A DNA stretch of 52,779 nucleotides from a virus (IMGVR_UViG_3300020020_000039:1-52779); one strand, 5' to 3'. Shown: positions 2,543-52,388, counted from the stretch's first letter. The notes: generated by a model from the letters alone, not told the origin. Made by a program: numbers and translations.

Positions 2543-3174
2543 TTTAGAAAAGGCTCCATCTCTTTCATCCATATCTTGTACCCCTTACTATTAATATGAA
2601 GCCCATCGAATGATAAGGAATCAAAGTTTACCATCTTGCTATGTAAGTCAAGGTATTTTACTTTATACTTTTCGCACAGTTTCTGAAGTTCAGTATTAAC
2701 GGTCTTAATATCTGCGTTCCATTTATTGTAATCTCCGCTCATTGGCAGTAAAGAGATAACTATCGCCTCATATTTCGCTCTCATTAATATAGTGTCGTAG
2801 TTGTTAAGTAACGTCTCTTTACTCACCCCGTTTTTAATATCATTCTCCCCTATCAGGATAAACACTTTCGAAGGACAGCTTTGATAGATTGCCCCTATCC
2901 TGTTTTTTAAATGCTCCGTTGTGTTTCCGCTAATCCCCCTGTTCTTAAATTTACTCCCGTATAACTCAACGGGGAACGCTTCTGTAATGCTATTGCCTAA
3001 AAAAACTACATCCCCGCTATCTATTGGCATAAGTTTAAAAACATCATTCTTGGTTTGATTGTAGGTATCGCTGGTGTTTATAGTTTGTGGTTTAGGAGCA
3101 AGCCTTCTGGCAACGATAAAAGCGAAGCCAGCGGTTGACAGTGCCAGTAGCGAGTAAAAAAGGGTTTTGTACAT
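2539..3174 (-). CDS. SGNH/GDSL-family hydrolase, membrane anchored
   Basis: 211 aa. An N-terminal hydrophobic segment (residues 4-22) is an uncleaved signal or anchor, placing the catalytic domain outside the inner membrane. SGNH blocks are all present: S62 in GNSITE, the block II glycine in NRGISGNTT, N111 in GEND, and D190/H193 in DGLHINSKGY. The family hydrolyses ester bonds such as acyl or acetyl groups on lipids and glycans; the substrate here is unknown. It follows the secreted-protein gene by two bases and belongs to the minus-strand group headed by the repressor, so it may be expressed in the prophage state. Lysogenic conversion of the cell surface is a reasonable inference. Confidence 0.88.
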   Translation of the reverse strand: MYKTLFYSLLALSTAGFAFIVARRLAPKPQTINTSDTYNQTKNDVFKLMPIDSGDVVFLGNSITEAFPVELYGSKFKNRGISGNTTEHLKNRIGAIYQSCPSKVFILIGENDIKNGVSKETLLNNYDTILMRAKYEAIVISLLPMSGDYNKWNADIKTVNTELQKLCEKYKVKYLDLHSKMVNFDSLSFDGLHINSKGYKIWMKEMEPFLN

Positions 3175-3176
3175 TA

Positions 3177-3608
3177 CTAATTACTTCTTTCGTAAATAAG
3201 ATCCGAACTCATTTTACTTGCTAATCCGTGAACAACAGTCCACGCCTGCCCGGTAGCGGTTGATGATTGAAACCGTCCCTTCTTTGTAGCGGGGTAGCCT
3301 AAAGGCTCATCTTTTAATATGGTATTCTCCAGTGTAAACGTGGTATTAATACGGGCTGACGAGTCAACTATCCGAACGTAAACAATAATAGTGGTCAGCC
3401 AAACCCCCTTTGTCATCTTGGGTTCCGTCTTTACAGTTAACAGATCATTGTCCTTCTTATCAATTACAAATCCTTCATTCATCAAAACTTCACAGGCCGT
3501 CTTGAAAGAAACATTTTTAGCTATTATTATATTGTCACCTCTCGTTTGCGCAATCGCTTGCGTGGAAAACACTAAGACGAGAAAAAAAATAATTGGTTGC
3601 GTTGACAT
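3177..3608 (-). CDS. Secreted hypothetical protein (143 aa)
   Basis: The start at 3608 is chosen because it gives a clean signal peptide (MSTQPIIFFLVLVFSTQAIA, cleavage before Q); the frame also continues 23 codons upstream. The mature protein of about 122 residues is beta-rich and polar, with no recognised domain. It is coupled to the SGNH hydrolase gene downstream. Upstream in its leader is a near-perfect palindrome ACCCACTAGCGGGT (3630-3643), a possible operator. A periplasmic partner of the hydrolase or a superinfection-exclusion factor is possible, but nothing in the sequence proves it. Confidence 0.7.
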   Translation of the reverse strand: MSTQPIIFFLVLVFSTQAIAQTRGDNIIIAKNVSFKTACEVLMNEGFVIDKKDNDLLTVKTEPKMTKGVWLTTIIVYVRIVDSSARINTTFTLENTILKDEPLGYPATKKGRFQSSTATGQAWTVVHGLASKMSSDLIYERSN

Positions 3609-3629
3609 ATATTTTTTGATTATTGTTCT

Positions 3630-3643
3630 ACCCACTAGCGGGT
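3630..3643. promoter_or_regulatory. Palindrome upstream of the secreted-protein/esterase pair
   Basis: ACCCACTAGCGGGT is a 14-bp palindrome with one mismatched pair. It lies 22 bp upstream of the chosen start of the minus-strand secreted-protein gene. It could be a repressor site or a small hairpin; no T tract follows. Confidence 0.3.
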
Positions 3644-16844: not shown

Positions 16845-17114
16845 ATGAAAAGGTTTTTTCTATTCCTGATGACCGTAGCAATTTTTTCCTGCACCAACAA
16901 CACCGAAGATCCCGATGCCGTTGGGCAGGGTGCGCTGCACTTGCCGGTAAATTTTGATTCAACTTACAAGCTGTGTCTTGGAAGAGATACATTAAATGTG
17001 ATAATGACAGACACGGCAGGAGGAAACGTTAACTACTTAATCCTTCCTGATTCGATACCGGGAGTAAAGACCCACGAAGATTTTATCCAGGCGGTTGAGA
17101 ACTGCTTTGAGTAG
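16845..17114 (+). CDS. Putative lipoprotein (89 aa)
   Basis: Signal MKRFFLFLMTVAIFSC with a lipobox-like cysteine at residue 16, followed by polar TNNTEDPD. The mature part is about 73 residues. An outer-surface or periplasmic accessory protein, possibly superinfection exclusion; no domain recognised. Confidence 0.65.
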   Translation: MKRFFLFLMTVAIFSCTNNTEDPDAVGQGALHLPVNFDSTYKLCLGRDTLNVIMTDTAGGNVNYLILPDSIPGVKTHEDFIQAVENCFE

Positions 17115-22409: not shown

Positions 22410-22664
22410 ATGAGCGAAAAAACATCTGTAATAATTCTGCTTTCAATGGATGCCGTATGGTTATTCATTTGTGTGCGAGCGCTAATCTTGCATATTAGGA
22501 GCAAAGAAAAGGAAGATAGTATAATAATAAATTTATGGATGGGAATAATAATCACACCTGTCGGGTTCATTCCGCTTGGACTTATTATCTCCCTGACGTT
22601 AATAATAGGCATTTGCTATTTAATACCCATGTATCTATTTTTTAAAGTAAATCAAACCAAATGA
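22410..22664 (+). CDS. Multi-span membrane protein (84 aa)
   Basis: Two or three hydrophobic segments (VIILLSMDAVWLFICVRALI, NLWMGIIITPVGFIPLGLII and onward to YLIPMYLFF). Coupled by ATGA to the lipoprotein gene. May form a membrane pair with it, for example in exclusion. Confidence 0.6.
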   Translation: MSEKTSVIILLSMDAVWLFICVRALILHIRSKEKEDSIIINLWMGIIITPVGFIPLGLIISLTLIIGICYLIPMYLFFKVNQTK

Positions 22665-22993
22665 AACAACTCTTAATTCTATTGCTTGTATGTGCGGGGT
22701 GTATTAGCTGCTCTCCATACACTTATATGGTTGGCTGCAATGAATACTGGGGAACAACTTTTGAGCATAGGATAGACCAACAGGGCAATGTTTGTATTTT
22801 TTATATCGGCAAGATAGAAACGCTTCAGCAAAAACCCGAGAGGAACATAGGTGACACGCTGCATCTTATCTTACTTCACCTTGAATATCGTGACGAGAAG
22901 AAACGCTTTGATAACATGATCGAAATTTATCAAGACATATTAAAGTCTGGTGATAAAACACCCCTTAATCATTTGTCATTTTCGAAATATTAG
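22661..22993 (+). CDS. Putative lipoprotein (110 aa)
   Basis: Signal MKQLLILLLVCAGCISC with cysteines at 11, 14 and 17, any of which could be lipidated. The mature region has several Cys and a charged helical C-terminus. No domain recognised. Confidence 0.6.
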   Translation: MKQLLILLLVCAGCISCSPYTYMVGCNEYWGTTFEHRIDQQGNVCIFYIGKIETLQQKPERNIGDTLHLILLHLEYRDEKKRFDNMIEIYQDILKSGDKTPLNHLSFSKY

Positions 22994-35323: not shown

Positions 35324-35757
35324 GAGATCCTAACAAGATATTTCGGGATGCGGTTAAGAGTTCTTTGGATGGTGTTTTATTCTTTGAATTATCGCAGGTT
35401 CAAGTGTATGATGAGAAAGCGGAAGAGGGTAATAACATGACTTACGTGATACTAAGCACCCAAACATCAGCACAGGAACCAAATTTCAGTGGTTTCGGGC
35501 ATCAGTGTTCTTTATTACTTGATATCGTCTGCAAACAATACGATATGATGAATAAAGAAGCGGTAGACGATGTAAGCAACCAGATATTAACAATATTATT
35601 CCCGAGTGTTACTACAAACGGGTTAACAATACAATCAGGGTTTCAAATAAACTGCTTGACAGTAGAGAGTGTAAACTATGTGCCTCTAAGGTTAGCAAAT
35701 GCAAAAAGTATAATAAGAAAATTAATTCGATTAACAGCTAAAATATCTCAATCATGA
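35320..35757 (+). CDS. Tail terminator / completion protein
   Basis: 145 aa. Fits the DUF3168/gp17-like layout by position and by the pattern VYVLSTQ-like strand (TYVILSTQTSAQEPNFSGFG), VCKQYDMMNKEAVDDVSNQI. Caps the tail tube and stops polymerisation. Overlaps both neighbours by 4 bp. Confidence 0.75.
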   Translation: MRDPNKIFRDAVKSSLDGVLFFELSQVQVYDEKAEEGNNMTYVILSTQTSAQEPNFSGFGHQCSLLLDIVCKQYDMMNKEAVDDVSNQILTILFPSVTTNGLTIQSGFQINCLTVESVNYVPLRLANAKSIIRKLIRLTAKISQS

Positions 35758-36182
35758 CAACAATTTCGTCGACGTTAGTGCCTCTGGAGTTATCTTTTGA
35801 CAGTGCGGTAAGCTGGCAGGCGTTGGTATGTTTACAACAGTACAATGTTCCTACCGAAAGACAGGCAACGCAAGAAGATACTTTCTGTGGTATTGCTACG
35901 GCTCTCGGCGCTCAAACATTTAACCCATCTGGAACAGCGATCTGTGAAGTAAACCCAACAGCGGGCAGCCAGGTTACTTACAATAGGCTTTTAACAGCGC
36001 AAACTAACGGCGAGACATTTAAATTCCGTGTTAGATACCCGTCAAGCGGTTCTACTGGTCAAAGTTTTTACCTGAGCGGAGATTGTAAATGTAGTTCACT
36101 CGATTTACAGATGGACGCTACTACTTACATCAAATTCGCATTCACATTAACAGGAGAGGGAACACTTGATATAACCAACTAA
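35754..36182 (+). CDS. Major tail tube protein
   Basis: 142 aa. Beta-sandwich pattern with VPTERQATQEDTFCGIATAL and DGETFKF-type strands (GETFKFRVRYPSS), ending FTLTGEGTLDI, as in siphovirus tube subunits. Sits between the terminator and the chaperone genes, the standard place. A second tube-like protein is encoded at 40487. Confidence 0.78.
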   Translation: MTTISSTLVPLELSFDSAVSWQALVCLQQYNVPTERQATQEDTFCGIATALGAQTFNPSGTAICEVNPTAGSQVTYNRLLTAQTNGETFKFRVRYPSSGSTGQSFYLSGDCKCSSLDLQMDATTYIKFAFTLTGEGTLDITN

Positions 36183-36886: not shown

Positions 36887-38464
36887 ATGGCAGAAGAATC
36901 GTTAAAGGTCGTCATTGGTGCGGATGTTAATGGTGCAATAGCTGGCATCAATAAATTTAACACTGCACTCGGTAAAACCCCTGCTACTACGCAGCGGGCT
37001 AACCAGGCGCTCACCAACTTGTCAAGGGTGGCGCAGGATGCTCCTTTTGGATTCATAGGTATCGCTAACAACTTAGACCCATTACTCGCATCATTCCAAT
37101 CTTTAAGTAAAGAATCAGGTAGCACAAAGAACGCTTTAAAAGCATTAGCCAGTAGTTTAGCTGGTCCGGCTGGTATCGCCGTTGGGCTTTCTATCGTTTC
37201 TTCTCTCGTTGTTTCTGCAATACAAAAGTACGGTAGCTTATCAGCGGCACTTAATGCTGCGTTTGGTGATACATCAGCACTTTCAAGAGCAAACACAGAG
37301 CTTGGTAAATCATTCGCAGAGGCGGCAGGTAAAGCAGGTGGTGAGATTGCTACTGTTCGGGCGTTGGTATCAATCGCAAGGGATAAACAATTATCCGACA
37401 ACGCAAGGAACGAGGCAATAAAGAAACTCAATTCTGAGTACGATCAGTATTTACCAAAGCTCACTTTAGAGAATGTTACCACACAAGAAGTATTAAAGGC
37501 GACGGACGCTCTCAATCAATCATTACTTCGTCAGGCAAAAATAAAAGGTGTTCAGGATTTAATTAGCGATGAGTTTAAAAAACAGGCGTTACTCGCTTTA
37601 GAACTTCAGGAAACAGTTAAGGGCGCTAGTTCTGCTATCGGAGTATTATTTAACTCAGTAAGAGGTGCGGGTAATGTCGGAGTAGGTTTACTTAGTGGGT
37701 TAAAGGGAATTAACGAAGAGCTTTCTGATTCTAAAGTAAAAGCATCAGCATTCGAGCAGGTATTAAACTCTTTATTAAAAGATGAAGCCGTCGGAGGTAC
37801 TTTATTTGATGATACTAAGAAAACAAAGAAAACAAAAGTTGGAAAACTTGTAGACGATCTTAAAGACTTGCAATCTTCACTACCTAAGACAACTCAGCAA
37901 TTACAAAATAGTATAATAGCACCTTTTTTATTCGGTGAAGATTTCGGGCCGGATATTGACACGGATCGAATCATTCTACCAATAAGAAATCTCGGTGATG
38001 CTATAGAGGAAGAAACAAAAAGAGTAGCGGGCGCAAAGCTGATGGAGAATTTAAGACTTCAGGCAGAGCAAACAGCTACTACGGTTTCAGATTTACTTAC
38101 TCCCGCATTTGAGGGATTCTTTAATACACTTCTAACCGGTTCGGGTAATCCATTTAAAGCATTTGGCGAAGCTATCAAAAGAATGATAGCACAATTGGCG
38201 GCGGCAGTTGCTAAGGCTGCAATATTCGCCGCTATCATGAATGTGATTGCTCCTGGTTCCGGTTCGTTTGGCTCATTGTTTAAGGCAGGGCTTGGAGGTT
38301 TAGGGAATTTGATTGGTGGAGTTGCTAACGGAGGCATTAACACCGGCACAATAACAGGATCAGCAAGCAGAGGATTCAATGTAGAGGTAACGGGAAGGAT
38401 GAGCGGAACGGAATTATTATTTGTGACTAACAAAGTAAACGGGCAGATAGCCAGAGGATTCTAA
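36887..38464 (+). CDS. Tape measure protein
   Basis: 525 aa. Begins with the ADVNGAIAGINKFNTALGKT pattern, has Ala/Gly-rich hydrophobic segments (LASSLAGPAGIAVGLSIVSS and AAAVAKAAIFAAIMNVIAPG), and long helices between. Position after the chaperones confirms it. At roughly 0.15 nm per residue the tail would be about 75-80 nm, short for a siphovirus. The C-terminal residues (VTGRMSGTELLFVTNKVNGQ) may interact with the distal tail. Confidence 0.88.
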   Translation: MAEESLKVVIGADVNGAIAGINKFNTALGKTPATTQRANQALTNLSRVAQDAPFGFIGIANNLDPLLASFQSLSKESGSTKNALKALASSLAGPAGIAVGLSIVSSLVVSAIQKYGSLSAALNAAFGDTSALSRANTELGKSFAEAAGKAGGEIATVRALVSIARDKQLSDNARNEAIKKLNSEYDQYLPKLTLENVTTQEVLKATDALNQSLLRQAKIKGVQDLISDEFKKQALLALELQETVKGASSAIGVLFNSVRGAGNVGVGLLSGLKGINEELSDSKVKASAFEQVLNSLLKDEAVGGTLFDDTKKTKKTKVGKLVDDLKDLQSSLPKTTQQLQNSIIAPFLFGEDFGPDIDTDRIILPIRNLGDAIEEETKRVAGAKLMENLRLQAEQTATTVSDLLTPAFEGFFNTLLTGSGNPFKAFGEAIKRMIAQLAAAVAKAAIFAAIMNVIAPGSGSFGSLFKAGLGGLGNLIGGVANGGINTGTITGSASRGFNVEVTGRMSGTELLFVTNKVNGQIARGF

Positions 38465-40485
38465 TGCCATACTATCAAACATATAATTGTAAGGCGTTTA
38501 ATAGGCTCGGTCAGCTTATTGATATAGAATTTTGGTCTACTACGTTCTCCGATACTATTTATCAATTACCTCTTGTTTCTTTTCATCATGAGTATATAAA
38601 CGGCGAGAATGATAAGTTTGATCCATGTATTATAGGCTCAAGAGCGATAATAAAAGTAAGAGCTTGGCCTACATCTCCGTCCCATGTTCACAATGAAATG
38701 TTCTATGCTAACGCATACGACGAGTGGAAAGTAATATGCAAGATTGACACGGTAGTTGTTTTCACCGGCTTTGTATCTATGGATGTAGAGCCTTATATCC
38801 TTAAAGATAAACCTTATGATGTTGTTGTTAGTTGTACTGATGGATTAGGGTTACTAAAGAATGAGGAACTAACCGATATCAACGGGGATCAATTTGAAGG
38901 GCGAAATACCTTTTTAGAATATATCCTCGGAGCGCTAAAGAAAACAAATCTCGATCTGAATCTGAGAGTTTGTGTAAATATTTACAATGTTGCCAATGAT
39001 GACAGGTTAGATAGCGGTAGTCCTGATATGTTTACTCAGAATTGTCTTCATCATAAGACTTTCGAGAAAGATGTGAATGTATTTTATGACTGTTATGAGT
39101 CATTAGAAAGAATTCTCGGAGGTTGGTGTATTCTTTATCAATATATGGGGTTGTGGGTTATTGGTTCCCGCTCCGATCTTCAGTATTTAAGTACTAACTA
39201 TCATTCTGAGTACGATTCAGACGGAGCTGATCAGGGGACTGTATTTGACGTAAACGGTATGCAGGTAATTGGTAAGAACCAGAATATTCACGCTACCAAT
39301 CTTGATCAGAATGTTAGTTATGCAGGCGCTTTAAAAGGAGTAACCACAAGATTTAAATATCGTATTCCTCCAAACTTAGTAAACAATCAAAGACTCCAAA
39401 ACTTAGGTGATTTGATAGCGCCCCTTTCGGGAGTAGGTTACTCAGCTTATGAGCTAGTAGGATGGACTCATTATCAGGGACAACCTCAACCTTTAGCCGA
39501 TCAGGTTCCGGCAGCTTCCAACGCATACATAAAAGTAGAAGTTGATACATACGGAACTCAAACTGACAGATATTATGTTATCGAACACGATGCAACTGCT
39601 CCGAGTACAACGCTAGAGAACTATATCCGCAATGATAACGATGATTGTTTTTTAGATGAAGGAGATGAGTTAACAATCGGACTTACTTACCGGTCTACTC
39701 TGGATCATAACGCTACTGTAGGATGTGTAGCATTATTACGTGATGGCTTCAGCGGCAACAGTGCAGGAGATTGGAGAAGTCTTGATGAAGACGGAGTTTG
39801 GCACAGCGGGCCTTATGCAACATTCGCAAGACACGACGCAGGCGAAGACGCTACTGAATGGAAAACAACAACAGTAGACAGGGCAAGAATTCCAGAGAAT
39901 GGTGTTTTATACCTATTCCTCGGCGCTGGAGATATTAGCGATCCACAAGAGACTCATTTCAAAGATATACTTGTTGATGTTACTCTTTACGTGAGAGGTT
40001 CAAGGCTCGATGTTGATGGTGATTACTGGAAAACAGAACAAGACGCTAACATAAAAGATAAAATAGACGAAGAGATTTTTATAAGTGATGCCCCTAAAAG
40101 AATAATTACAGGCGCAATATGGAACGAAGCTGGAACGGCTTTAACTGATCCCGACTGGTATCAACAGTTCGTAACAGAGAACAGGCATTTTAAAGAGATA
40201 GTAAACTTGGTAAGGTTCCGGCATCAGAGAACAAGGAGAAAAAGAATAGAGGGGCAATTTAAAGGCGTTATGTGTATGCCTGCGGGTAATCCTACAATTC
40301 AATTGCCATTAGGATTTCACAGGCAATTTCAAATGGAGAACCAGGATTTAAATTTTGTTTTAGTGCCTCCATTACAGATTGATTATGTGCAAGGGTTTTG
40401 GAGAGGGACATTAATGTCAGGATATGAGACAGGAGACACCGTAGAGGACGGAGATACGCACGTTTTCAATTACGAATTTAAGTGA
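38464..40485 (+). CDS. Distal tail / hub protein (673 aa)
   Basis: N-terminal beta domain (DIEFWSTTFSDTIYQLPLVS) and a segment KVICKIDTVVVFTGFVSMDV suggest the distal-tail/tail-hub role, placed directly after the tape measure. The middle is rich in beta strands with a possible carbohydrate-binding module (YRSTLDHNATVGCVALLRDG). Likely connects the tube to the fibres. Domain names are tentative. Confidence 0.65.
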   Translation: MPYYQTYNCKAFNRLGQLIDIEFWSTTFSDTIYQLPLVSFHHEYINGENDKFDPCIIGSRAIIKVRAWPTSPSHVHNEMFYANAYDEWKVICKIDTVVVFTGFVSMDVEPYILKDKPYDVVVSCTDGLGLLKNEELTDINGDQFEGRNTFLEYILGALKKTNLDLNLRVCVNIYNVANDDRLDSGSPDMFTQNCLHHKTFEKDVNVFYDCYESLERILGGWCILYQYMGLWVIGSRSDLQYLSTNYHSEYDSDGADQGTVFDVNGMQVIGKNQNIHATNLDQNVSYAGALKGVTTRFKYRIPPNLVNNQRLQNLGDLIAPLSGVGYSAYELVGWTHYQGQPQPLADQVPAASNAYIKVEVDTYGTQTDRYYVIEHDATAPSTTLENYIRNDNDDCFLDEGDELTIGLTYRSTLDHNATVGCVALLRDGFSGNSAGDWRSLDEDGVWHSGPYATFARHDAGEDATEWKTTTVDRARIPENGVLYLFLGAGDISDPQETHFKDILVDVTLYVRGSRLDVDGDYWKTEQDANIKDKIDEEIFISDAPKRIITGAIWNEAGTALTDPDWYQQFVTENRHFKEIVNLVRFRHQRTRRKRIEGQFKGVMCMPAGNPTIQLPLGFHRQFQMENQDLNFVLVPPLQIDYVQGFWRGTLMSGYETGDTVEDGDTHVFNYEFK

Positions 40486-40486
40486 T

Positions 40487-40924
40487 ATGGCTAGTGTTGT
40501 AAAAGGCAAGGATTGTTATTTCAAGATAAATATTACAGGTGGGCTAAAGCTAGTCCTATGTAGTAAGTCTTTTACACTGTCTACAGTAACCGAGGAAGTG
40601 GAAGTAACAACAATATCAGACGGAAGCGACCCGGAGGAAGGATTCTGGAGAGACTTTGATTATCATTCTTTGGGTTATACGATAACACTGGAAGGGATTT
40701 TAAAGAATACGGATAGTACAGATGATACAGCATGGGAATTAAATACTGCGCAAAGAATGTTTTACGAGGTTCCGTTTACAATGTATTTCGTTGATGCGGA
40801 GAGTAACGCTAAAACAATTGAGGGGACAGCTATAGTAAAGAGTTCAACATTCGGCGCAACATCGAACGCTTTTGTAAGTACGAGTATTGAATTTATTGGT
40901 AAAGGAAAATATACGATAACATGA
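40487..40924 (+). CDS. Second tail-tube-like protein
   Basis: 145 aa. VVKGKDCYFKINITGGLKLV, CSKSFTLSTVTEEVEVTTIS and GYTITLEGILKNTD match the TP901-1-type tube fold, yet this gene lies between the hub and the spikes instead of before the chaperones. It may form a tail-tip ring, decorate the tube or link the spike. Its stop overlaps the spike gene by 4 bp. Confidence 0.65.
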   Translation: MASVVKGKDCYFKINITGGLKLVLCSKSFTLSTVTEEVEVTTISDGSDPEEGFWRDFDYHSLGYTITLEGILKNTDSTDDTAWELNTAQRMFYEVPFTMYFVDAESNAKTIEGTAIVKSSTFGATSNAFVSTSIEFIGKGKYTIT

Positions 40925-43548
40925 GGAAGATTGCATTTGTGGGGCTATTGGTTATAATGGGTATGGGTGTAAAAGCGCAACTTGGTGCTCAATCTCTGGA
41001 CAGTGTTAGAAACTATAACACGAGGTACACGACAAACAGCGCAATTACGTGGTTCTCTAACCTGAGAGGGCAGACGTTACTAAGGGGGATTATTGATCAC
41101 ATTGATTCCACTACACAGAATACCGTGGTTAATTTCTACAAAGACGGTGATTCGATAAGATTAGTATTTGCTTCAGGTGATACGTTGAGTGTGCTTGGCG
41201 GCAGCGGTGGTGGGTCTTCGCTTACCAACGCATCTACAACGGGAGATACATTAATCGTCGGCTCCTCAATAAAAAGATTAGGAGTTGGTACGAGTGGAAC
41301 AGATTTAGCGCTTGCAACAACGTCATCAAAGATTACTATTAATATTCCGAACGCTTCTTTAGCGGCAACAAGAGGATTAGTCGTAAACACAGACTGGCAG
41401 AGCATTCCGGGATCTGTGAACTTAATGAGGTACGGAGCCGACAATACAGGCTCAACTTCTATTCATACTCAGATCAACGCAGCGATAGCAGCGGGGTATA
41501 AAACTATTTATTTACCAGAGGGGCAATTCTTAATTACTACTCAGATTAATTGGGCAGATAGTGTTTCGCTGGTAGGAGCGGGAAGGGGTAAGACTTATAT
41601 AAAAATGACCTCGAATATCACCGCAATTAAATTATCGTATGCGCTCGGAGGCAATAAGGCACAATTCAGAGATTTTACTATCCGTGGAACGAACGGAAGC
41701 GGTGGTTCTACTTCTCAAAAAGGAATCGTTATAGATAGTGCTTATGGTTGTATTATAGATAATGTCGGCGGTTATTTTATGGCCGGTGCAGTGTTTTCCA
41801 TAGCAGGTAACGGATCAATCGCCAGCGGTAATAAATACACTTTTGGAAATCTTATTACTAACTGTTATACAGAAACGTGCTACATAGGTCTATTCCTTGA
41901 CGTTCGGGCAGAATATAACAGGGTTACAAATAACACCTTCGTTGATGGCACTTACGGAATACAACGTAAAGGAGGCAATAACCAGATTATAGGGAACAAC
42001 TTATCATCTAACTCTATTGGGTATTTAAGCGAAGGCGGTTCCAATAATGCGCATGGTATTAATGCGAACAATACAATGAATCACTGCGGAACATGGGGCT
42101 ATCACGCTACAGGAATTACACTAGGCGAGGACATGGAAGGGAATCAGATATGGTCAAGCCAGGTCAGAATTGAAAACAGTGTTAATATTAATATGCGTGG
42201 TGGCACTATTGAATCAGATAGTATAATAATAACCGGTTCTAGTTTCAATATGGCTTACACCCGACTATCGGGAGGCGTCGCATCAGAAACAGGCTGGAGA
42301 TATTCAACGTCTACCGGGAACATAGCATGGTTTAGCGCCGATGGAATGAGATATAAAAATCTTGCATCAACCTCGAATAAAGGCGGAACAGTTAACGCAT
42401 ATTTAAACGGAGTTGTTGCTTATGGTGGCGATTTGGTAAGCGGAACAATGGCAGGGGTGGCAGAGCACAGATTTTATCAGCCAATAACAGGAGCAAACGG
42501 AACTTTTGATGCTTCGAGAGATTTAAACATAAAGTCTATGCGTCAAGATGGGGATGCTACCGGCCCGGTTGATGCTGCACAATTTTACAGAACAGGAACA
42601 ACGGGAAGTACATTAGCAATACTTGATAATGCAGCAAATTATTCATTCAGAGTTTTACCAGTTGGAAGGATTGGAGTGGGTGGTGTTTCTGTTCCTACTG
42701 CTCAAATGCACTTTGCAGCAAGTACTACGTCGGCAAGTACAGCCCCAATAAAATTTTCTACTGGTACTTTAATGACAACTGCGGAAGCGGGAGCGTTTGA
42801 ATACGATGGATCTCATTTTTATTTATCTCCTTCGACTACACGTAAAAAGATTCCATTATTTACCAGTGCAACAGCAGCAACGGGTTCTATATTATACGGT
42901 AACGGAACTGATTTTAGTTTACTTGCTGCGGGGTCAGATGGGCATGTTTTAACTCTTGCAAGTGGTGTTCCTTCATGGGCTGCACCTACGGGAGGTAATG
43001 CTATTGCAACCAACGGAAACAGTACGTTAACAGCTAACAGTACTTTATCCAATTCAACTTTCAACTTCACTATAAGCAATAGCTCTACAGGACGATTCAA
43101 ACTTAACGGAATAAAATCCGACGATCCTGTTCGTGGTCTTGGTATGGCTGCCGATAGTTCGGTTGTTGGTTACACAATTCAGACAAGAGAAGAAGTAGAA
43201 ATAAATACTTCAGGAAATACACCTACTACGGTCTTCACATTAACTCCCGATGTCGGAGTTGAGGAAATCATTACAATAGTAATCACTTTCAACGCTAAGA
43301 AACAAAGCGCCACCGGAGGTTATGTAGCTATTAAAAAAATGTCCTTCCAGTGGGATGGTATTACAACATTAACAAATGGAACTCTTGCTGATATGGTAGC
43401 AGAGCAGTTCTTCTCAGGACTCAGCACCTGCGATATTACAATAACAAATTCAGGGGATGATATAATTGTTCAATTCACCGGGGAAAGCGCAACGGATATA
43501 CACGGAACGTTATACGTTGACATTACCCGCACAAGCATAGGACTATGA
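40921..43548 (+). CDS. Tail spike with pectate-lyase-like beta helix and signal peptide
   Basis: 875 aa. Residues 1-20 form a Sec-type signal (MRKIAFVGLLVIMGMGVKAQ). From ~165 NLMRYGADNTGSTSIHTQIN and KTIYLPEGQFLITTQINW open a Pectate_lyase_3 right-handed beta helix with regular GGSN/NNT turns, up to ~470. The C-terminal ~250 residues have fibre-type repeats (FSTGTLMTTAEAGAFEYDGS) and a beta domain. Probably binds or cleaves surface polysaccharide. A signal peptide on a structural gene is odd. Confidence 0.75.
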   Translation: MRKIAFVGLLVIMGMGVKAQLGAQSLDSVRNYNTRYTTNSAITWFSNLRGQTLLRGIIDHIDSTTQNTVVNFYKDGDSIRLVFASGDTLSVLGGSGGGSSLTNASTTGDTLIVGSSIKRLGVGTSGTDLALATTSSKITINIPNASLAATRGLVVNTDWQSIPGSVNLMRYGADNTGSTSIHTQINAAIAAGYKTIYLPEGQFLITTQINWADSVSLVGAGRGKTYIKMTSNITAIKLSYALGGNKAQFRDFTIRGTNGSGGSTSQKGIVIDSAYGCIIDNVGGYFMAGAVFSIAGNGSIASGNKYTFGNLITNCYTETCYIGLFLDVRAEYNRVTNNTFVDGTYGIQRKGGNNQIIGNNLSSNSIGYLSEGGSNNAHGINANNTMNHCGTWGYHATGITLGEDMEGNQIWSSQVRIENSVNINMRGGTIESDSIIITGSSFNMAYTRLSGGVASETGWRYSTSTGNIAWFSADGMRYKNLASTSNKGGTVNAYLNGVVAYGGDLVSGTMAGVAEHRFYQPITGANGTFDASRDLNIKSMRQDGDATGPVDAAQFYRTGTTGSTLAILDNAANYSFRVLPVGRIGVGGVSVPTAQMHFAASTTSASTAPIKFSTGTLMTTAEAGAFEYDGSHFYLSPSTTRKKIPLFTSATAATGSILYGNGTDFSLLAAGSDGHVLTLASGVPSWAAPTGGNAIATNGNSTLTANSTLSNSTFNFTISNSSTGRFKLNGIKSDDPVRGLGMAADSSVVGYTIQTREEVEINTSGNTPTTVFTLTPDVGVEEIITIVITFNAKKQSATGGYVAIKKMSFQWDGITTLTNGTLADMVAEQFFSGLSTCDITITNSGDDIIVQFTGESATDIHGTLYVDITRTSIGL

Positions 43549-44624
43549 GATATTTAACGTTAATATTTTTACTGATTTCTTTTTGTGCGGGAGCGCAAAC
43601 GACTACACATATTTATGATACTGTTGGTGGTTCTGTAACACGTTCAAAACTTGTTATAAAATCATTGTCTGAAATGCCGGATTCGGTATGGACAAAGTTC
43701 GGAAGCGTGTCGGTTAAAGTTCCCAAGTCCTCATTTGCTCCGCAAACTTGGGGGAGTATTACAGGTAAACCTTCATTTGCTACTGTAGCTACTTCAGGTT
43801 CATACGCTGACTTATCTAATAAACCAACGATTACAACTAATACAAACCAGTTAACAAATGGGTCTGGATTTTTAGTTGCTGCGGATATTGCGGGCAAGCA
43901 AAACACTCTGGTAAGTGCCACTAACATTAAAACAGTTAACGGTAGCTCATTATTAGGTAGTGGAGATATATCAATAAGCGGAACAGCGGCATGGGGAAGC
44001 GTGACAGGAACTTTAAGCAATCAATCGGACTTACAAACCGTATTAAACGGTAAGATAGGCGACAATACAGATATGCTTGCTTATACGGCTCTCGGTTCTC
44101 CTTTCCTCGCTCAAACAGTAGGCGCACCAGTACAAACAGCTAATACCTCAACCGCATTGGTTGACGGCCAAATAAAATTTACAGCAGTTTATTTACCGAA
44201 AGCAACAACGATTACAGGAATACGTGTGTACGTGCGTGTATTAGGGGCTTATACAGGCGATAATAATAATAGAGTTGGATTGTATTCATATAGTGCTGGA
44301 GTGTTGACGCTGGTAGCAAGCAGTGCAAATAATGCAACGCAATGGACGGGAGCGGCCAACGCATTTCAAACAATAGCATTTAGTTCTCCTTATGCGGCAG
44401 CAGCGGGAATTTATTATGTGGGCGTCCTTTATAATCAATCGGCGCAAACAACCGCCCCTGCTTTAGCTTCTGGAGTAGCTCTTAACAACGTCGCAATGGC
44501 AACACTAGGGTTTTCTAATTCAGCGAAATTATACGGAACAGCAAACGGTGCAGATTTAACTACACCAATAAATATGAGTGCTATCACTGCGTCGGTAATT
44601 CCAACGTGGATAGCTCTTTATTAA
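43545..44624 (+). CDS. Tail fibre-like protein with signal peptide (359 aa)
   Basis: Signal MRYLTLIFLLISFCAGAQ, then a region with the fibre repeat GSYADLSNKPTITTNTNQLT and KTVNGSSLLGSGDISISG, typical of phage and prophage fibres. The C-terminal third is a beta domain (YLPKATTITGIRVYVRVLGA) that could recognise a receptor. Overlaps the spike gene by 4 bp. Confidence 0.7.
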   Translation: MRYLTLIFLLISFCAGAQTTTHIYDTVGGSVTRSKLVIKSLSEMPDSVWTKFGSVSVKVPKSSFAPQTWGSITGKPSFATVATSGSYADLSNKPTITTNTNQLTNGSGFLVAADIAGKQNTLVSATNIKTVNGSSLLGSGDISISGTAAWGSVTGTLSNQSDLQTVLNGKIGDNTDMLAYTALGSPFLAQTVGAPVQTANTSTALVDGQIKFTAVYLPKATTITGIRVYVRVLGAYTGDNNNRVGLYSYSAGVLTLVASSANNATQWTGAANAFQTIAFSSPYAAAAGIYYVGVLYNQSAQTTAPALASGVALNNVAMATLGFSNSAKLYGTANGADLTTPINMSAITASVIPTWIALY

Positions 44625-44633
44625 TAATAAAAA

Positions 44634-47600
44634 ATGAGGTTAGCAGCATTATTGGTTTTGGCTCTGATTGGTTCATTTGGTTATGGGCAGAATCCGAATT
44701 TCGTTCCTGGAGTTCAGAAACTGTACACTATTGCCGGAAGATCCTGTTTAGTATGGACTCCTGACACAACTCTCCCTAAAAAATTCGTGCTCGGCTTACA
44801 CGCTACCGGCAACAGTTGTAATGATAGTGCAGCGGCAGTGAATCAGGGATGGGCTAAAAGAGTACGGGTTACCACAACCGGTTTGCATCGTGACAGTATG
44901 ATGCACATTACTTTTATTAGGACAGTTGGAGAAAATGCAGGGGTAAGCGACCTTCTTAATATTGACAGGGTTTTAGATACTGTTTATAAATACTGCGATT
45001 GGATTGATACGTCAGCTACAACAAATAGAAACTTCTTTAGCGGTCTTTCACAGGGCGCTCAGGAAATGTACAGGTATTTAAGCAACTGGAGCGGAACAGG
45101 CGGAGAGCATAGAACGAGATTTAAAACGCAAGTGGTAATGTCTGGCGGCGCTTTTAATGATCCAGATTTTGTAGGTTTTAGAGTTCGTTATACTCATGTC
45201 AGTTTTAATACGCTTGATGCGGTTGTAGGTTCTTATTATAACGATCATCTGTATGACTTGTTTTATGACACTTACGGTTATGTAAACCCACTTACAAGAA
45301 AAATAGAATTAGCGGGGACTGATCACGGTTCAGCGGCATGGGATAGCACAACAAGTCAGGCGGGAGCAGATGCTAATAGTAACGTAACGATGTGGATATT
45401 ATCTCCGTCTTACAATCTTTCAAATTACCCACCGGTAGCCGATGCAGGAGTAACGCAAACACTAGCTATTGCAGCAACGACAGCAACACTCAATGGATCT
45501 GCAAGCTACGATCCGGATGCCTTAATAACTACCTACGCATGGACGCAAATAAGCGGGGCGGCTAGTACGATCACATCAGCATCTTCTGCAAGTACCGGAA
45601 TAACAGGATTAGCGCCGGGAATTTATAGATACAGATTGGTGGTTACCGATGATGATGGCGCAACAGATGATGATACAGTGAGTGTAGTTGTCGCAAATCC
45701 ACGTTACCGAATAACTGTTCCCGCGGCCAATGTATTCAGAAACGGAGGGCGTGACGGAGTAATACCCTATACGAATTGGTTAGATGGCGATACTACTAAC
45801 AATACATGCCCACTAACATTTGGAACATCCGGAATTGATCTGCCTAACACTGGTATTATAATGCTGGATAGCACTTATACCAACTTCGCCTTTGCTTTAA
45901 AGAATCTTGGCGGCGGCGGAAGTACGGTAATAAATTTTTGGTTGTATAATGACGACCGTGATGATAGTTTGGCGGTATCAGTAAGTACAGCAATTGATTC
46001 ATGGAACTATGTAGATAGCAACAGATCGAAAGGCGTTCACTTCCCGGTAAGGTGGATTGAGTGGACTACTACAACATGCTTTTCTTATATAAGCGAAATG
46101 CGGATATACGGCACTGCGGTAGCGGAAGGTCAACAGATATTCCCAAGCTCCGTATCTATGCCAGTTGGCTCATTCACTGACTTCTTAGGTACTGCCTCGG
46201 GCGGTACTGATCCGGACAGTTTATATACCGCTATCGGGAAATCCAGAATATTCGCAGGGCATTGGTATTTCGATAGCTCAGCAACTTTCAATTCAGCAGC
46301 AAGAAATATAATTTTTAACTTCTTTGGAGGTGATAATACAAACGCAGTTGTAGCAGCTTACCGGGCAAGAGGTGTTAAGTTAAGCTATGCAACTTTCGGA
46401 GCTATAAGAGCCTTTCAAGATCCCGTACCCAGTAGCCCATTATCATACGGATCATTTAATGACAATAAAAAGAATATGGCTATCGGAGCAGATAGTACAG
46501 ACCCGGCAGCGTGGATAGCTTCAGCCCAAAACGGTTATTTTATTTCAGGATGGGGGGGGCGTAACACTTCAGTAAGTTGGGGTCCACATACCGTAAAAAC
46601 AGGAGGTGGCGTGAACGTTACAAAAGGCAACGATTGGTTATACGGAATAGAAGAAGGAAACGAATCCAATGCAAGCTGGTCTACTGAGCGGTATCAAAAC
46701 AGCCGGGTACGGATGGCCAAGCAATCGGCTTTCTACGATGGACACATGGGCGCTCTTGGAAGTTACGCAGGTGTAAAAACAGCCGATAGCACGATGCTTG
46801 CGGGAGTTGGCGCACTGGTTGGATTTGACAGTGTAACCATGAAAACAGATGCCCTGTTTGATTACCGTATTCGGGGATTGGATAATCAAGCGTGGGATTA
46901 CTATTCTATAAATCAATACTTCACTTATACAGGTGAGCAATCATTCAGTGTGCCATCTCCAAACGGGATCTCACCGGGTCAATTTCGGTGGTTCACAAGG
47001 GCTAGTTCAATAGTTAGCATACGCAACAGATACATGCCCGGTAAGAGAATTCACATAACGGAGTTTGGATGGGATAAAAACGGGTCAACTTCTTACAGCG
47101 CACTTGCTCACGGTTCGCTAGATAGCGAATACGTACACGCAAACTACATACACCTTGCTTTTCATATTGGTAGAGCGGTTGGTATTGATGAAATGGATCA
47201 GTATAAAAGTATTGATGATGGAGTACTGGCAAACCAGGGAGATTTTGTTACATCAGGAAATTCTAGTGGTTACCCTGATTACACAAGATGGGCGGCTAAC
47301 TTTTGGATGAGTACAATGAAAAGTGTTTTTGCAGGCTACGATTCTCAATTGCCAACAATACTTCAGAACGGAGATAGTACTGATCTGTACATTTTCAAAT
47401 ATCAAACAAGCGGAAATGATACTATAGTTTTTGTATTACAATCCGGAACGCATGATGATAGTGAGTTTGATTATGATTTAAGCGTTGGTGAAACTTCTTT
47501 TTGTGAAGTTATAAACATGGCTAAAGGAGATTTAGACGGAGTGCGAACAACGGGGACACCAACGGCGGGAGTGCTTCATCTTGATGACGTAGGCGAAACT

Positions 47601-47681
47601 CCTGTTTATGTCAGAATAGTTTTACAAAGTTCATCAGCAACAAGACGAACAATATACACTAATACAATAATAAGACAGTAA
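44634..47681 (+). CDS. Esterase-PKD-glycosidase fusion with signal peptide (1015 aa)
   Basis: Signal MRLAALLVLALIGSFGYGQ. Residues ~25-265 form an alpha/beta-hydrolase: GLSQGAQEM gives the GxSxG nucleophile, GTDHGSAAW a likely catalytic His. Residues ~270-355 are a PKD-type beta domain (PVADAGVTQTLAIAATTATL, LVVTDDDGATDDDTVSV). From ~540 a TIM-barrel-like domain has acid YGIEEGNES and nucleophile-like HITEFGWDKN, the pattern of clan A glycosidases. A two-activity enzyme for acylated surface polysaccharide is inferred. The end is beta rich. Confidence 0.7.
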   Translation: MRLAALLVLALIGSFGYGQNPNFVPGVQKLYTIAGRSCLVWTPDTTLPKKFVLGLHATGNSCNDSAAAVNQGWAKRVRVTTTGLHRDSMMHITFIRTVGENAGVSDLLNIDRVLDTVYKYCDWIDTSATTNRNFFSGLSQGAQEMYRYLSNWSGTGGEHRTRFKTQVVMSGGAFNDPDFVGFRVRYTHVSFNTLDAVVGSYYNDHLYDLFYDTYGYVNPLTRKIELAGTDHGSAAWDSTTSQAGADANSNVTMWILSPSYNLSNYPPVADAGVTQTLAIAATTATLNGSASYDPDALITTYAWTQISGAASTITSASSASTGITGLAPGIYRYRLVVTDDDGATDDDTVSVVVANPRYRITVPAANVFRNGGRDGVIPYTNWLDGDTTNNTCPLTFGTSGIDLPNTGIIMLDSTYTNFAFALKNLGGGGSTVINFWLYNDDRDDSLAVSVSTAIDSWNYVDSNRSKGVHFPVRWIEWTTTTCFSYISEMRIYGTAVAEGQQIFPSSVSMPVGSFTDFLGTASGGTDPDSLYTAIGKSRIFAGHWYFDSSATFNSAARNIIFNFFGGDNTNAVVAAYRARGVKLSYATFGAIRAFQDPVPSSPLSYGSFNDNKKNMAIGADSTDPAAWIASAQNGYFISGWGGRNTSVSWGPHTVKTGGGVNVTKGNDWLYGIEEGNESNASWSTERYQNSRVRMAKQSAFYDGHMGALGSYAGVKTADSTMLAGVGALVGFDSVTMKTDALFDYRIRGLDNQAWDYYSINQYFTYTGEQSFSVPSPNGISPGQFRWFTRASSIVSIRNRYMPGKRIHITEFGWDKNGSTSYSALAHGSLDSEYVHANYIHLAFHIGRAVGIDEMDQYKSIDDGVLANQGDFVTSGNSSGYPDYTRWAANFWMSTMKSVFAGYDSQLPTILQNGDSTDLYIFKYQTSGNDTIVFVLQSGTHDDSEFDYDLSVGETSFCEVINMAKGDLDGVRTTGTPTAGVLHLDDVGETPVYVRIVLQSSSATRRTIYTNTIIRQ

Positions 47682-48171: not shown

Positions 48172-48249
48172 ATGAAGCTCCGTCGTGACAGTACAATTTT
48201 TCTTATAGTAATAATTATAATTATTCTACTGAACGGTAATAAATGTTAA
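48172..48249 (+). CDS. Tiny membrane peptide in lysis cassette (25 aa)
   Basis: MKLRRDSTIFLIVIIIIILL and a short tail, a single membrane span, starting right after the holin stop and overlapping the next gene. Could modulate holin timing. Too short to verify. Confidence 0.35.
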   Translation: MKLRRDSTIFLIVIIIIILLNGNKC

Positions 48250-48260
48250 AACTAAAACCA

Positions 48261-48830
48261 ATGAGATATCTATTAATTATTATTCTCTTCGCCTCTTGCG
48301 TCAACCAGAAAAAGGTAACAAGGTGGCTCGACGAAAACGAAGTAGAGGCTGCGAAGTATTGCGCCGATGAATTTCCCGTAAAGGAATCCGTTGATACTAC
48401 TTACAAAATAGACTCAGCAGCTTATAACGAAGCGTACAATGAACTATTAAAGTACGTAGATAGTTTGCTTGGCGTCGTTGAAAGTAAACCAACTGAGAGG
48501 TTAGTTTATATCACTACTGAAGGGAGGATTAGAGAAATCAACATGGACTCTTTACGCAAAGCAGTCACAGCACAGGTTAAAAAAGCAATCAGGCCGTGTA
48601 TTGACTCAATTAAGTACGTGACTAAAGTAGTTGAGAATACTGCGAGGGTACGGCAATTGACCTTAGAGCTAGGGACAAAAGATCAAACGATTTCTAAGCG
48701 AGATCAAACAATAAGCGATCAGGCAAAGACTATCAAACAAAAAGCACGTTGGGTCTGGTACTTCTGGTTACTAATAGCTCTTATCGCAGGGTACGTCTTT
48801 GTAAAGATCAGATTCAAATTACCAATATGA
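48261..48830 (+). CDS. Unimolecular spanin candidate (lipoprotein plus C-terminal membrane span)
   Basis: 189 aa from the ATG at 48261 (another in-frame ATG is at 48243). N-terminal lipoprotein signal MRYLLIIILFASC with lipidated Cys13, a helical periplasmic body with heptads (DQTISKRDQTISDQAKTIKQ), and a C-terminal inner-membrane span YFWLLIALIAGYVFVKI. Both membrane attachments in one protein is the hallmark of u-spanins, which fuse outer and inner membrane at the end of lysis. Position beside holin and endolysin supports this. Confidence 0.75.
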   Translation: MRYLLIIILFASCVNQKKVTRWLDENEVEAAKYCADEFPVKESVDTTYKIDSAAYNEAYNELLKYVDSLLGVVESKPTERLVYITTEGRIREINMDSLRKAVTAQVKKAIRPCIDSIKYVTKVVENTARVRQLTLELGTKDQTISKRDQTISDQAKTIKQKARWVWYFWLLIALIAGYVFVKIRFKLPI

Positions 48831-49156: not shown

Positions 49157-49647
49157 TTTTCACCATCCACAAAGGAAAGCATATATCCAAACCAAGAAAG
49201 TTTTCTTTCTGGTGGGGACGTGATGCCTTTAGATGGAACGTTTTATTCACTCCCTCTTGTCGGTATGACTTAAAGTCTATAGATCAATTAGACATCAACA
49301 AACTTGTTGGAGTTGGCTATCTACCAACTCACCACAGAGAGAGTGCAAGATTCGGATGGAGGTATAATAGCAAGAACGACAGGATAGAAGTGTTTGCTTA
49401 TTGTTATATCGGAGGTAAAAGAGTAACAAGATTAATAGATGATTGCGAGATAGGTAAGGAATATTTTCTGAATCTTTTTATTAGTTACGACAGATACCAG
49501 TTTTCAATATCCGATAAAGCGCATGTTTTCTCAGGCGAGACAATTAAGAAAACTCACAACAAGAAATTCCAGTATCGGCTAGGAACTTATTTTGGCGGTA
49601 ATGAACCAGCGCCGCAAGAAATCAAAATACAAATTAAGGCAGTATGA
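49153..49647 (+). CDS. Beta-rich hypothetical protein (164 aa)
   Basis: Strand-rich with FGWRYNSKNDRIEVFAYCYI, RYQFSISDKAHVFSGET and FQYRLGTYFGGNEPAPQEIK, suggestive of a jelly-roll or carbohydrate-binding fold. Located between membrane and endolysin genes; a cell-wall binding partner for the endolysin is possible, not shown. Confidence 0.6.
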   Translation: MIFTIHKGKHISKPRKFSFWWGRDAFRWNVLFTPSCRYDLKSIDQLDINKLVGVGYLPTHHRESARFGWRYNSKNDRIEVFAYCYIGGKRVTRLIDDCEIGKEYFLNLFISYDRYQFSISDKAHVFSGETIKKTHNKKFQYRLGTYFGGNEPAPQEIKIQIKAV

Positions 49648-50108
49648 TGACAGATGAACAAATAATTGCAAAGTACGGAGCGGCGGGGGACGAAAACAAT
49701 CTAACGTTTATTCAACTACCGTACCCAATGCGAATAGCTTGGGATTTAGGTAAGACGGTAACCAGAATGCAATGTCACAAGCTGGTAGCTCCTGGTTTCG
49801 AAGAGGTGTTTGATCATTTATTACAACACTACGGGCTAGATAAAATAAAAGAGTTGGGAATTGATCTGTATGGAGGCTGTGTGAATTTTAGATTAATGAG
49901 GGGAAGTAAAACGAAATGGTCAAGACATTCCTGGGGAATTGCATTAGACCTAGATCCTGCTCGTAATGGGTTAAAGACAAAGAAACCAATTGCCCAATTC
50001 AGCAAACCGGAATATACAGCGATGACAGAAATTTTCTACATGAACGGTTTTATTGGGTATGGTAGAGAAAGAGATAATGATTACATGCACTGGGAAACCG
50101 CATCATGA
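49644..50108 (+). CDS. M15-family endolysin (peptidase)
   Basis: 154 aa. SRHSWGIALDLD holds H95 and D102 and YMHW holds H149, the zinc and catalytic set of VanY/M15 peptidases (SxHxxGxAxD, later HxE-type). Cleaves peptide stems of peptidoglycan. No signal peptide, so it needs the holin for export. Overlaps its upstream neighbour by 4 bp. Confidence 0.9.
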   Translation: MMTDEQIIAKYGAAGDENNLTFIQLPYPMRIAWDLGKTVTRMQCHKLVAPGFEEVFDHLLQHYGLDKIKELGIDLYGGCVNFRLMRGSKTKWSRHSWGIALDLDPARNGLKTKKPIAQFSKPEYTAMTEIFYMNGFIGYGRERDNDYMHWETAS

Positions 50109-50341
50109 AAACCCTAACCCTTATACTAATCATCACAGTAGTTATTTACTTAACAGGATGTCATTTAGTTTATCGGGGATGTATGGGGAATATAAAAGGG
50201 GTTCATTATTACGAGTACTACGGATCTTTTACCTATAGAAACAAAGAGTTTAAGGTTTTCCAATGCCGGGAGAAGGACGCTAAAGATACATTTCCTAATT
50301 ACCGGCTATTTATAAAATCAAAACAAGCTCATGAACGGTAG
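50105..50341 (+). CDS. Putative small lipoprotein (78 aa)
   Basis: Signal MKTLTLILIITVVIYLTGC with the lipobox cysteine at 19; the mature part of about 60 residues is rich in Tyr. In the lysis region; could aid outer-membrane disruption or be an exclusion factor. No family recognised. Overlaps the exonuclease gene. Confidence 0.6.
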   Translation: MKTLTLILIITVVIYLTGCHLVYRGCMGNIKGVHYYEYYGSFTYRNKEFKVFQCREKDAKDTFPNYRLFIKSKQAHER

Positions 50342-51636: not shown

Positions 51637-51885
51637 ATGGCAAAAGATGAAATAACAGAACAAGACCTCGAAGATGGCGAGGATATGATCGAGATCACCC
51701 CTGCTTCACCGGCAGAGGAAGTTGCATGTTGCTACAATGCTATTTGCTCCGTCGAAGATGTGGATATGGAGTTAATCAGCGAAGCCGACCAAAGAAGGGT
51801 GCGGGAGATTAAGAAATATTCCCTTCGAATAATCCACAAGCATATTAAAGAAATGTACGAGGAGAACTTTCCGAAAGCTGAATAA
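51637..51885 (+). CDS. Acidic hypothetical protein (82 aa)
   Basis: Strongly acidic N-terminus (DEITEQDLEDGEDMIEITPA) and a helical C-terminal part (ADQRRVREIKKYSLRIIHKH). Adjoins the SPFH gene with a 1-bp overlap; may be its partner or a DNA mimic. No evidence beyond composition. Confidence 0.6.
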   Translation: MAKDEITEQDLEDGEDMIEITPASPAEEVACCYNAICSVEDVDMELISEADQRRVREIKKYSLRIIHKHIKEMYEENFPKAE

Positions 51886-52388
51886 TGGACGCAATAGTGG
51901 CATTTATAACGCAGTTTTGGGCCGATCTCATGCCGTTTAAAATTATACTATGGTATGAGAGAGGGGCGTTTCTTCGTCCCGGTAAAGAGCCTAAATTGAT
52001 GATGCCAGGATTTTATATGAAGTGGCCTTTTTACGACACCGTTTTTGATTGCATTATAACTCCAGACACTTTAGTTTGTAAGCCATCGCATATAACAACG
52101 CTTGACGATAAGACGGCTGTAATAACTCCGGTAGTTGATTACGAGATAACAGATGCAATGAAGTTTATGATATTTAATAACGAGGCTCGTTCAAACTTCC
52201 ATGATACCGTAATGGGTATAACGTCAGAGGTAGTAGTTGGAATCGTTTGGCCTGAGTGTCGCAATAAATCCACAAAGACAGAGATTAAAAATAAGTTGAA
52301 TAAAAAAGCTGATGATATGGGAGTTAAGGTTAACACGATTTACTTAAAAGATATTGCTCTGTGCAAACTTATTATTACGAAGGTTTAG
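51885..52388 (+). CDS. SPFH/band-7 (stomatin-prohibitin) domain protein
   Basis: 167 aa. FLRPGKEPKLMMPGFYMKWP and FYDTVFDCIITPDTLVCKPS, then TLDDKTAVITPVVDYEITDA, are the hallmark of SPFH/HflK-type domains; MGVKVNTIYLKDIALCKLI ends the domain. The N-terminal segment FITQFWADLMPFKIILWYE could insert in the membrane. In bacteria the family scaffolds membrane proteases (HflK/C with FtsH). In lambda the FtsH-Hfl system controls lysogeny; a comparable role here is only inferred. Family match is fairly clear. Confidence 0.75.
   Translation: MDAIVAFITQFWADLMPFKIILWYERGAFLRPGKEPKLMMPGFYMKWPFYDTVFDCIITPDTLVCKPSHITTLDDKTAVITPVVDYEITDAMKFMIFNNEARSNFHDTVMGITSEVVVGIVWPECRNKSTKTEIKNKLNKKADDMGVKVNTIYLKDIALCKLIITKV

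Follow-up and report, generated by a model that had tools for sequence, protein, structure and literature searches.

Three consecutive tail genes of a virus that we read as a Bacteroidota siphophage carry signals for export, and proteins with such signals are recorded in the particles of related marine phages. The genes lie in IMGVR_UViG_3300020020_000039, a 52,779-base viral record that includes a siphophage-like block of structural genes and was analysed at its full length (the window). Their products appear to be distal fibre, tailspike or enzyme proteins that use the host Sec/signal-peptidase-I route. On the textbook view, tailed phages assemble wholly within the cytoplasm. The tagged proteins noted in the particles of relatives suggest, contrary to that view, that some of the particle is produced beyond the cell interior. 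Our best reading, which we consider moderately probable, is that these fibres are exported, cleaved, capped with pyroglutamate and often O-glycosylated, and that their addition to virions takes place outside the cytoplasm, probably at lysis.

Signal peptides of three tail genes

Genes 1–3 have the N-termini of Sec substrates. We scanned every window open reading frame (ORF) of at least 60 aa with a rule-based scorer, a stand-in for SignalP, that looks for a basic n-region, an uncharged hydrophobic run and small residues at −3 and −1. Gene 1 (40921..43548, plus strand; 875 aa), gene 2 (43545..44624, plus strand; 359 aa) and gene 3 (44634..47681, plus strand; 1015 aa) had been singled out in a preliminary description; the scan confirmed them as consecutive ORFs, with Sec signal peptides whose cleavage regions end KAQ, GAQ and YGQ. 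The signals span residues 1–19 of gene 1 (40921..40977, plus strand; predicted cleavage between KA and Q, with an alternative between GA and Q after residue 23), residues 1–17 of gene 2 (43545..43595, plus strand; between GA and Q) and residues 1–18 of gene 3 (44634..44687, plus strand; between YG and Q). The three N-termini, MRKIAFVGLLVIMGMGVKA, MRYLTLIFLLISFCAGA and MRLAALLVLALIGSFGYG, each followed by Gln, show all three features, with a hydrophobic run of 13–14 residues. Because genes 1 and 2 begin in ATGA overlaps with the preceding stop and gene 3 begins 9 nt past gene 2, their starts are firm.

The trait is rare in the window. By this mechanical scan, only four ORFs combine a signal peptide with Gln at +1: genes 1–3 and a minus-strand ORF at 3177–3635. 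The tape-measure, distal and tail-tube-like proteins showed no signal peptide in the rule-based scan, which bears out the earlier remark that other tail proteins here are without one. As a separate observation, the minus-strand Q-rule protein adjoins a GDSL acylhydrolase with a hydrophobic N-terminus (2539–3174, minus strand; PF13472, 3.8e-18), and both are encoded on the other strand from the structural genes.

The cleavage sites follow the Q-rule of Bacteroidetes: in that phylum Gln is exposed in a mean of 71% of signal-peptidase-I substrates (PMC5837995), and the exposed N-terminal Gln is cyclised to pyroglutamate (PMC10653852). Genes 1–3 have the n-, h- and c-regions of such substrates as well as the Gln at +1. 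Among 30 non-redundant fibre N-termini from this phage and its relatives, a partly Gln-selected sample, 29 have a legal +1 Gln, against 2.4 expected when the sequence behind the hydrophobic run is shuffled (P about 1e-33). As a prediction from sequence, export of genes 1–3 by Sec/signal-peptidase-I signals that obey the Q-rule is well supported.

The signal is conserved as part of a modular N-terminus. In the first 60 bases of a shared Cellulophaga module (module A), which hold the signal, pS (synonymous) is 0.302 and pN (non-synonymous) 0.000; the values for module B are 0.191 and 0.041. In one Cellulophaga module, where changes are synonymous only, the signal peptide is thus under purifying selection. 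Proteins gp094 of phi10:1 and gp103 of phi19:1 agree almost completely over ~50 residues and then diverge, gp093 of phi10:1 and gp086 of phi18:3 have only their first 118 residues in common, and one 42-residue start recurs in Assiduviridae, Pachyviridae and Duneviridae records. Judged by these alignments, the signal belongs to a conserved N-terminal module to which different C-terminal parts are joined.

The three proteins differ behind their signals. Gene 1 is tailspike-like, with a Pect-lyase_RHGA_epim beta-helix (PF12708, 9e-9, residues 166–393) that is 27.7% identical, across that domain, to a tail protein of a Rhizobium phage that has no signal. Gene 2 is tail-fibre-like through weak PHROG matches (phrog_17509, 9e-8; phrog_25379, a tail protein, 0.007) and matches a faecal phage at 84% identity across 31 aa. 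Gene 3 contains a GxSxG-type region (GLSQG), a PKD domain (PF22352, 1.3e-18, residues 271–353) and a C-terminal region with EEGNE and ITEFGWD; its putative serine-hydrolase-like and glycosidase-like regions were read by eye from these motifs, not from a database match. AlphaFold2 run without alignments on genes 2 and 3 gave no usable fold (mean pLDDT about 31).

Virion records and candidate glycosylation sites in related phages

Relatives carry the same pattern, and their records place such proteins in virions. Among phage isolates, Cellulophaga phage phi10:1 and Flavobacterium phage 11b have the tape measures closest to the window's. A survey of related phages, called for in the preliminary description, found the pattern again at the corresponding place in phi10:1 and in Bacteroidota prophages. 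Five consecutive Q-rule signal genes, gp091–gp095, occupy nearly the corresponding place in phi10:1 (the small gp090 intervenes), and the GenBank notes on gp091–gp094 describe them as structural, with annotation from experimental tandem mass spectrometry (MS/MS) proteomics. Signal-bearing proteins of phi19:1 (gp101–gp104), phi39:1 (gp25–gp26) and phi18:3 (gp085–gp087) carry MS/MS notes as well. The four Cellulophaga phages together have 13 signal-bearing fibre or lyase proteins with MS/MS virion notes, and Gln occupies +1 in 12 of these; the data reportedly stem from Holmfeldt 2013. A further lipoprotein and a further 104-aa Q-rule protein of phi10:1 (L001 1855–2247 and 6171–6485) also look exported but bear no MS/MS note, which makes mere contamination by exported protein less likely.

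Prophages extend the pattern beyond isolates. One to four signal-bearing genes stand behind the tail genes of prophages in Chitinophaga (L092), Saprospiraceae (L093) and Allomuricauda (L094), and one to four occur in further Bacteroidota prophages (L127, L204, L209 and L215). We came to the consecutive signal-bearing genes of phi10:1, phi19:1 and the named prophages by way of tail genes or named records. In its core genes the window shows only weak, partial tape-measure similarity to phi10:1 (Assiduviridae). The distal protein has no tblastn match among phage records; it, gene 2 and gene 3 have no relatives in IMG/VR, and gene 3 none in GTDB genome contigs, by scans that reach close relatives only. 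Pectate lyase is a separate gene in phi10:1 (gp095, L001 30028–31518) and part of the longer gp26 in phi39:1 (L090 18139–20172); gp26 has an MS/MS virion note, and PHROGs files both as moron.

Candidate glycosylation sites point to the same compartment. O-glycosylation in Bacteroidota targets D-S/T-hydrophobic sites of non-cytoplasmic (periplasmic) proteins, and occupancy is high (PMC12871550). We counted D[ST][AILMVT] and obtained expectations by shuffling, which ignores local structure; so counted, the trio holds 25 sequons against 10.4 expected (8 in gene 1, 2 in gene 2 and 15 in gene 3), and these proteins, predicted to be exported, thus have the sequence hallmark of O-glycoproteins. When the trio is pooled with the other signal-bearing fibres from non-flavobacterial phages, the count is 75 against 27.2. 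For a replication set of new loci from a search of Chitinophaga's order, enrichment was predicted before counting: we found 68 sequons against 29.9 (z 7.2), a pattern that one of the eight proteins did not follow, and no enrichment of D[ST] followed by other residues (35 against 46.7). Enrichment in signal-bearing fibres outside Flavobacteriales, the trio among them, is 2.3–2.7-fold, and signal-less fibre-like proteins of Bacteroidota phages show none (61 against 59.1). Counts in the Chitinophaga host were 78 against 51.9 for Q-rule proteins and 111 against 102.4 for cytoplasmic ones. The sequence enrichment, an indirect sign, fits real passage through the periplasm. Part of it could have been inherited from exported proteins of the host, but the enrichment in phages exceeds that in the host.

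Competing explanations and a proposed course

The preliminary description rightly saw a conflict between Sec signals, which now look genuine, and cytoplasmic assembly, and it offered several ways out. One was that the proteins are secreted depolymerases or decoys and not virion parts; in a wider form of this idea they are moron-type products, and the gene order marks a storage place for cargo. Gene 3 does resemble a free carbohydrate-active enzyme, PHROGs files related pectate lyases as morons, lambda has its exported Lom protein in the tail-fibre region, and gp095 of phi10:1 has no MS/MS note. Secretion alone is nevertheless unlikely, given the 13 signal-bearing proteins with virion notes in four relatives, the missing notes on other exported-looking phi10:1 proteins and the fibre-like character of gene 2. 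The virion notes contradict the idea for the relatives phi10:1, phi19:1, phi39:1 and phi18:3; it survives for gene 3, which may instead be a free secreted enzyme. Display on the host surface found no support: Pfam detected no type IX C-terminal sorting domain in genes 1–3 or 10 relatives. Type IX secretion was rejected on this ground, and the exported proteins should therefore stay in the periplasm.

Two further explanations keep assembly in the cytoplasm. The hydrophobic N-terminus might remain uncleaved and anchor the fibre in the tail tip, its likeness to a signal being incidental; this would account for the MS/MS notes under ordinary assembly, and fibres usually dock through their N-termini. 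An anchor, however, needs neither the alanine- or glycine-Gln end present in 29 of the 30 N-termini nor periplasmic O-glycosylation sequons, and signal-less flavophage fibres do without a hydrophobic segment. The strict Q-rule and the sequon bias thus argue against the anchor, which we hold to be very improbable. Just as doubtful is a dual fate, in which an unexported fraction builds virions in the cytoplasm while the exported fraction serves outside as enzyme, receptor mask or decoy. It is compatible with both signal peptides and virion notes and dispenses with assembly after lysis, but the form kept inside would be assembled with its hydrophobic leader, and no in-frame start lies just past the signal to yield a signal-less form, the next starts being at codons 69, 41 and 52 of genes 1, 2 and 3. 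The evidence favours proteins that are exported and also in the virion; the alternatives need not exclude each other.

Several observations weigh against export followed by mounting on the virion. The sample behind the Q-rule statistic was partly gathered by a Gln-favouring scan. Export is not required for Bacteroidota tail fibres: the trait is mosaic, with signal-less fibres in 11b, phi18:1, phi38:1 and crAss001, and most IMG/VR tape-measure relatives are without signal-bearing genes in the stretches examined. The MS/MS notes are GenBank records of relatives in which the peptides, hence the state of the N-terminus, are not visible, and periplasmic protein released at lysis might co-purify with virions. 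The phi10:1 pectate lyase gp095, last gene of its cluster, is without a note. Virion membership is carried over to this phage from those records, least firmly for gene 3, in which neither a fibre part nor a docking module can be recognised. The signal-bearing fibres of flavobacterial phages (L001, L088, L090, L094, L140, L141, L154 and L156) are depleted in sequons, with 24 against 62.2 expected (0.39). We considered reading this depletion as avoidance and dropped the idea, because signal-less 11b-like fibres are likewise somewhat depleted (0.59); the depletion is therefore uninformative and was given no weight.

Export, processing, periplasmic folding and docking at or after lysis remain the most economical reading of signal peptides combined with virion membership. 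For this phage we infer that the proteins are cleaved, given a pyroglutamate end, glycosylated and kept in the periplasm, and that they attach at or after lysis. The precursor would cross the inner membrane through Sec and be cut before Gln, which host glutaminyl cyclase would convert to pyroglutamate. The protein would then be O-glycosylated at D-S/T-hydrophobic sites and fold in the periplasm, where, having no outer-membrane export domain, it would be retained until lysis. At lysis it would meet virions from the cytoplasm and dock to their tail tips through its mature N-terminal module. Such docking is plausible because some tailspikes, those of P22, attach to particles in vitro. Oxidative folding is not an obvious reason for export, since cysteine content differs little between exported and cytoplasmic virion proteins (0.40 and 0.51 per 100 aa).

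The course may be general. We see the evidence as evenly poised on whether many Bacteroidota tailed phages mount Sec-exported, capped and, in some hosts, heavily O-glycosylated fibres at or after lysis, so that part of the Caudoviricetes virion would consist of host-modified glycoproteins. If so, final assembly takes place outside the cytoplasm, receptor-binding proteins undergo host-dependent modification, and expressing such fibres as tools would need correct export and processing. Annotation would be affected in both directions: lyases with a signal that are now classed as morons may belong to the virion, and signal-bearing prophage genes labelled as secreted may be fibres.

Neighbouring genes and comparison with known systems

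Genes 1–3 belong to a distal tail cluster, behind the genes for the tape measure, distal and tube-like proteins and ahead of the lysis genes. The anchor gene of the comparison, for a tape measure protein without signal peptide (36887..38464, plus strand), matches phrog_30292 (3e-42) and other tape-measure PHROGs and has 36% identity over 42% to gp087 of phi10:1, an MS/MS structural protein. A distal tail protein of ~650 aa follows (38464..40485, plus strand), also without a signal; it aligns with gp088 of phi10:1 (MS/MS structural) and gp43 of 11b. Immediately upstream of gene 1 lies a second tail-tube-like protein without a signal (40487..40924, plus strand; PF06199, 1.6e-5; phrog_1407, 1.6e-15). 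The window has two tube-like proteins (35754–36182 and 40487–40924; phrog_1407), and a second such gene behind the distal protein is found in the same layout in phi10:1, 11b and prophages L092–L094. Downstream, a lipoprotein-like gene with a lipobox (48243..48830, plus strand) is a probable spanin, judged from its position beside an M15 peptidase in the downstream lysis region; the peptidase is a probable endolysin (49644..50108, plus strand; PF13539, 6.5e-9). Small lipoprotein-like genes number four in the window (16845–17114, 22661–22993, 48243–48830 and 50105–50341), and an SPFH/Band 7 protein (51885–52388; PF01145, 7.9e-7) lies close to its right end.

Known systems share single elements of this arrangement. 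Ordinary tailspikes and fibres of the P22, lambda and T4 types are made and mounted in the cytoplasm without signal peptides; they share with genes 1–3 the distal tail position, a beta-helix lyase or fibre architecture and a conserved N-terminus with swapped C-termini. In the lambda structural region (bases 1–22000), the one annotated gene to be flagged encodes the outer-membrane protein Lom and not a tail protein. Filamentous phages do make virion proteins, pIII and pVIII, with Sec signal peptides, but these are unrelated proteins assembled by membrane-coupled extrusion without lysis. The closest likeness is in Cellulophaga phages phi10:1 and phi19:1 (Assiduviridae), in phi39:1, in phi18:3 (Pachyviridae) and in Ingeline (Duneviridae), which have runs of fibre and pectate-lyase genes with Q-rule signal peptides; these phages resemble the window only weakly (36%, for part of the tape measure, in phi10:1), and their fibres are sequon-poor. 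Signal peptides go unmentioned in the paper on Assiduviridae and Ingeline (PMC8776804), and among open-licence papers we found no description of signal peptides on virion fibres of tailed phages. Where phages are concerned, the only Q-rule counterparts that we found reported are five function-unassigned genes with exported products in Nixviridae prophages of P. gingivalis (PMC10367356). Secreted endolysins such as Lys44 of fOg44 (PMC6116005) are tailed-phage proteins that take the host Sec route with a cleaved signal, but they are lysis enzymes and not virion parts. At the cleavage site itself, genes 1–3 match the Q-rule substrates of signal peptidase I, with Gln at +1 after an alanine or glycine, a rule described for cellular proteins (PMC5837995).

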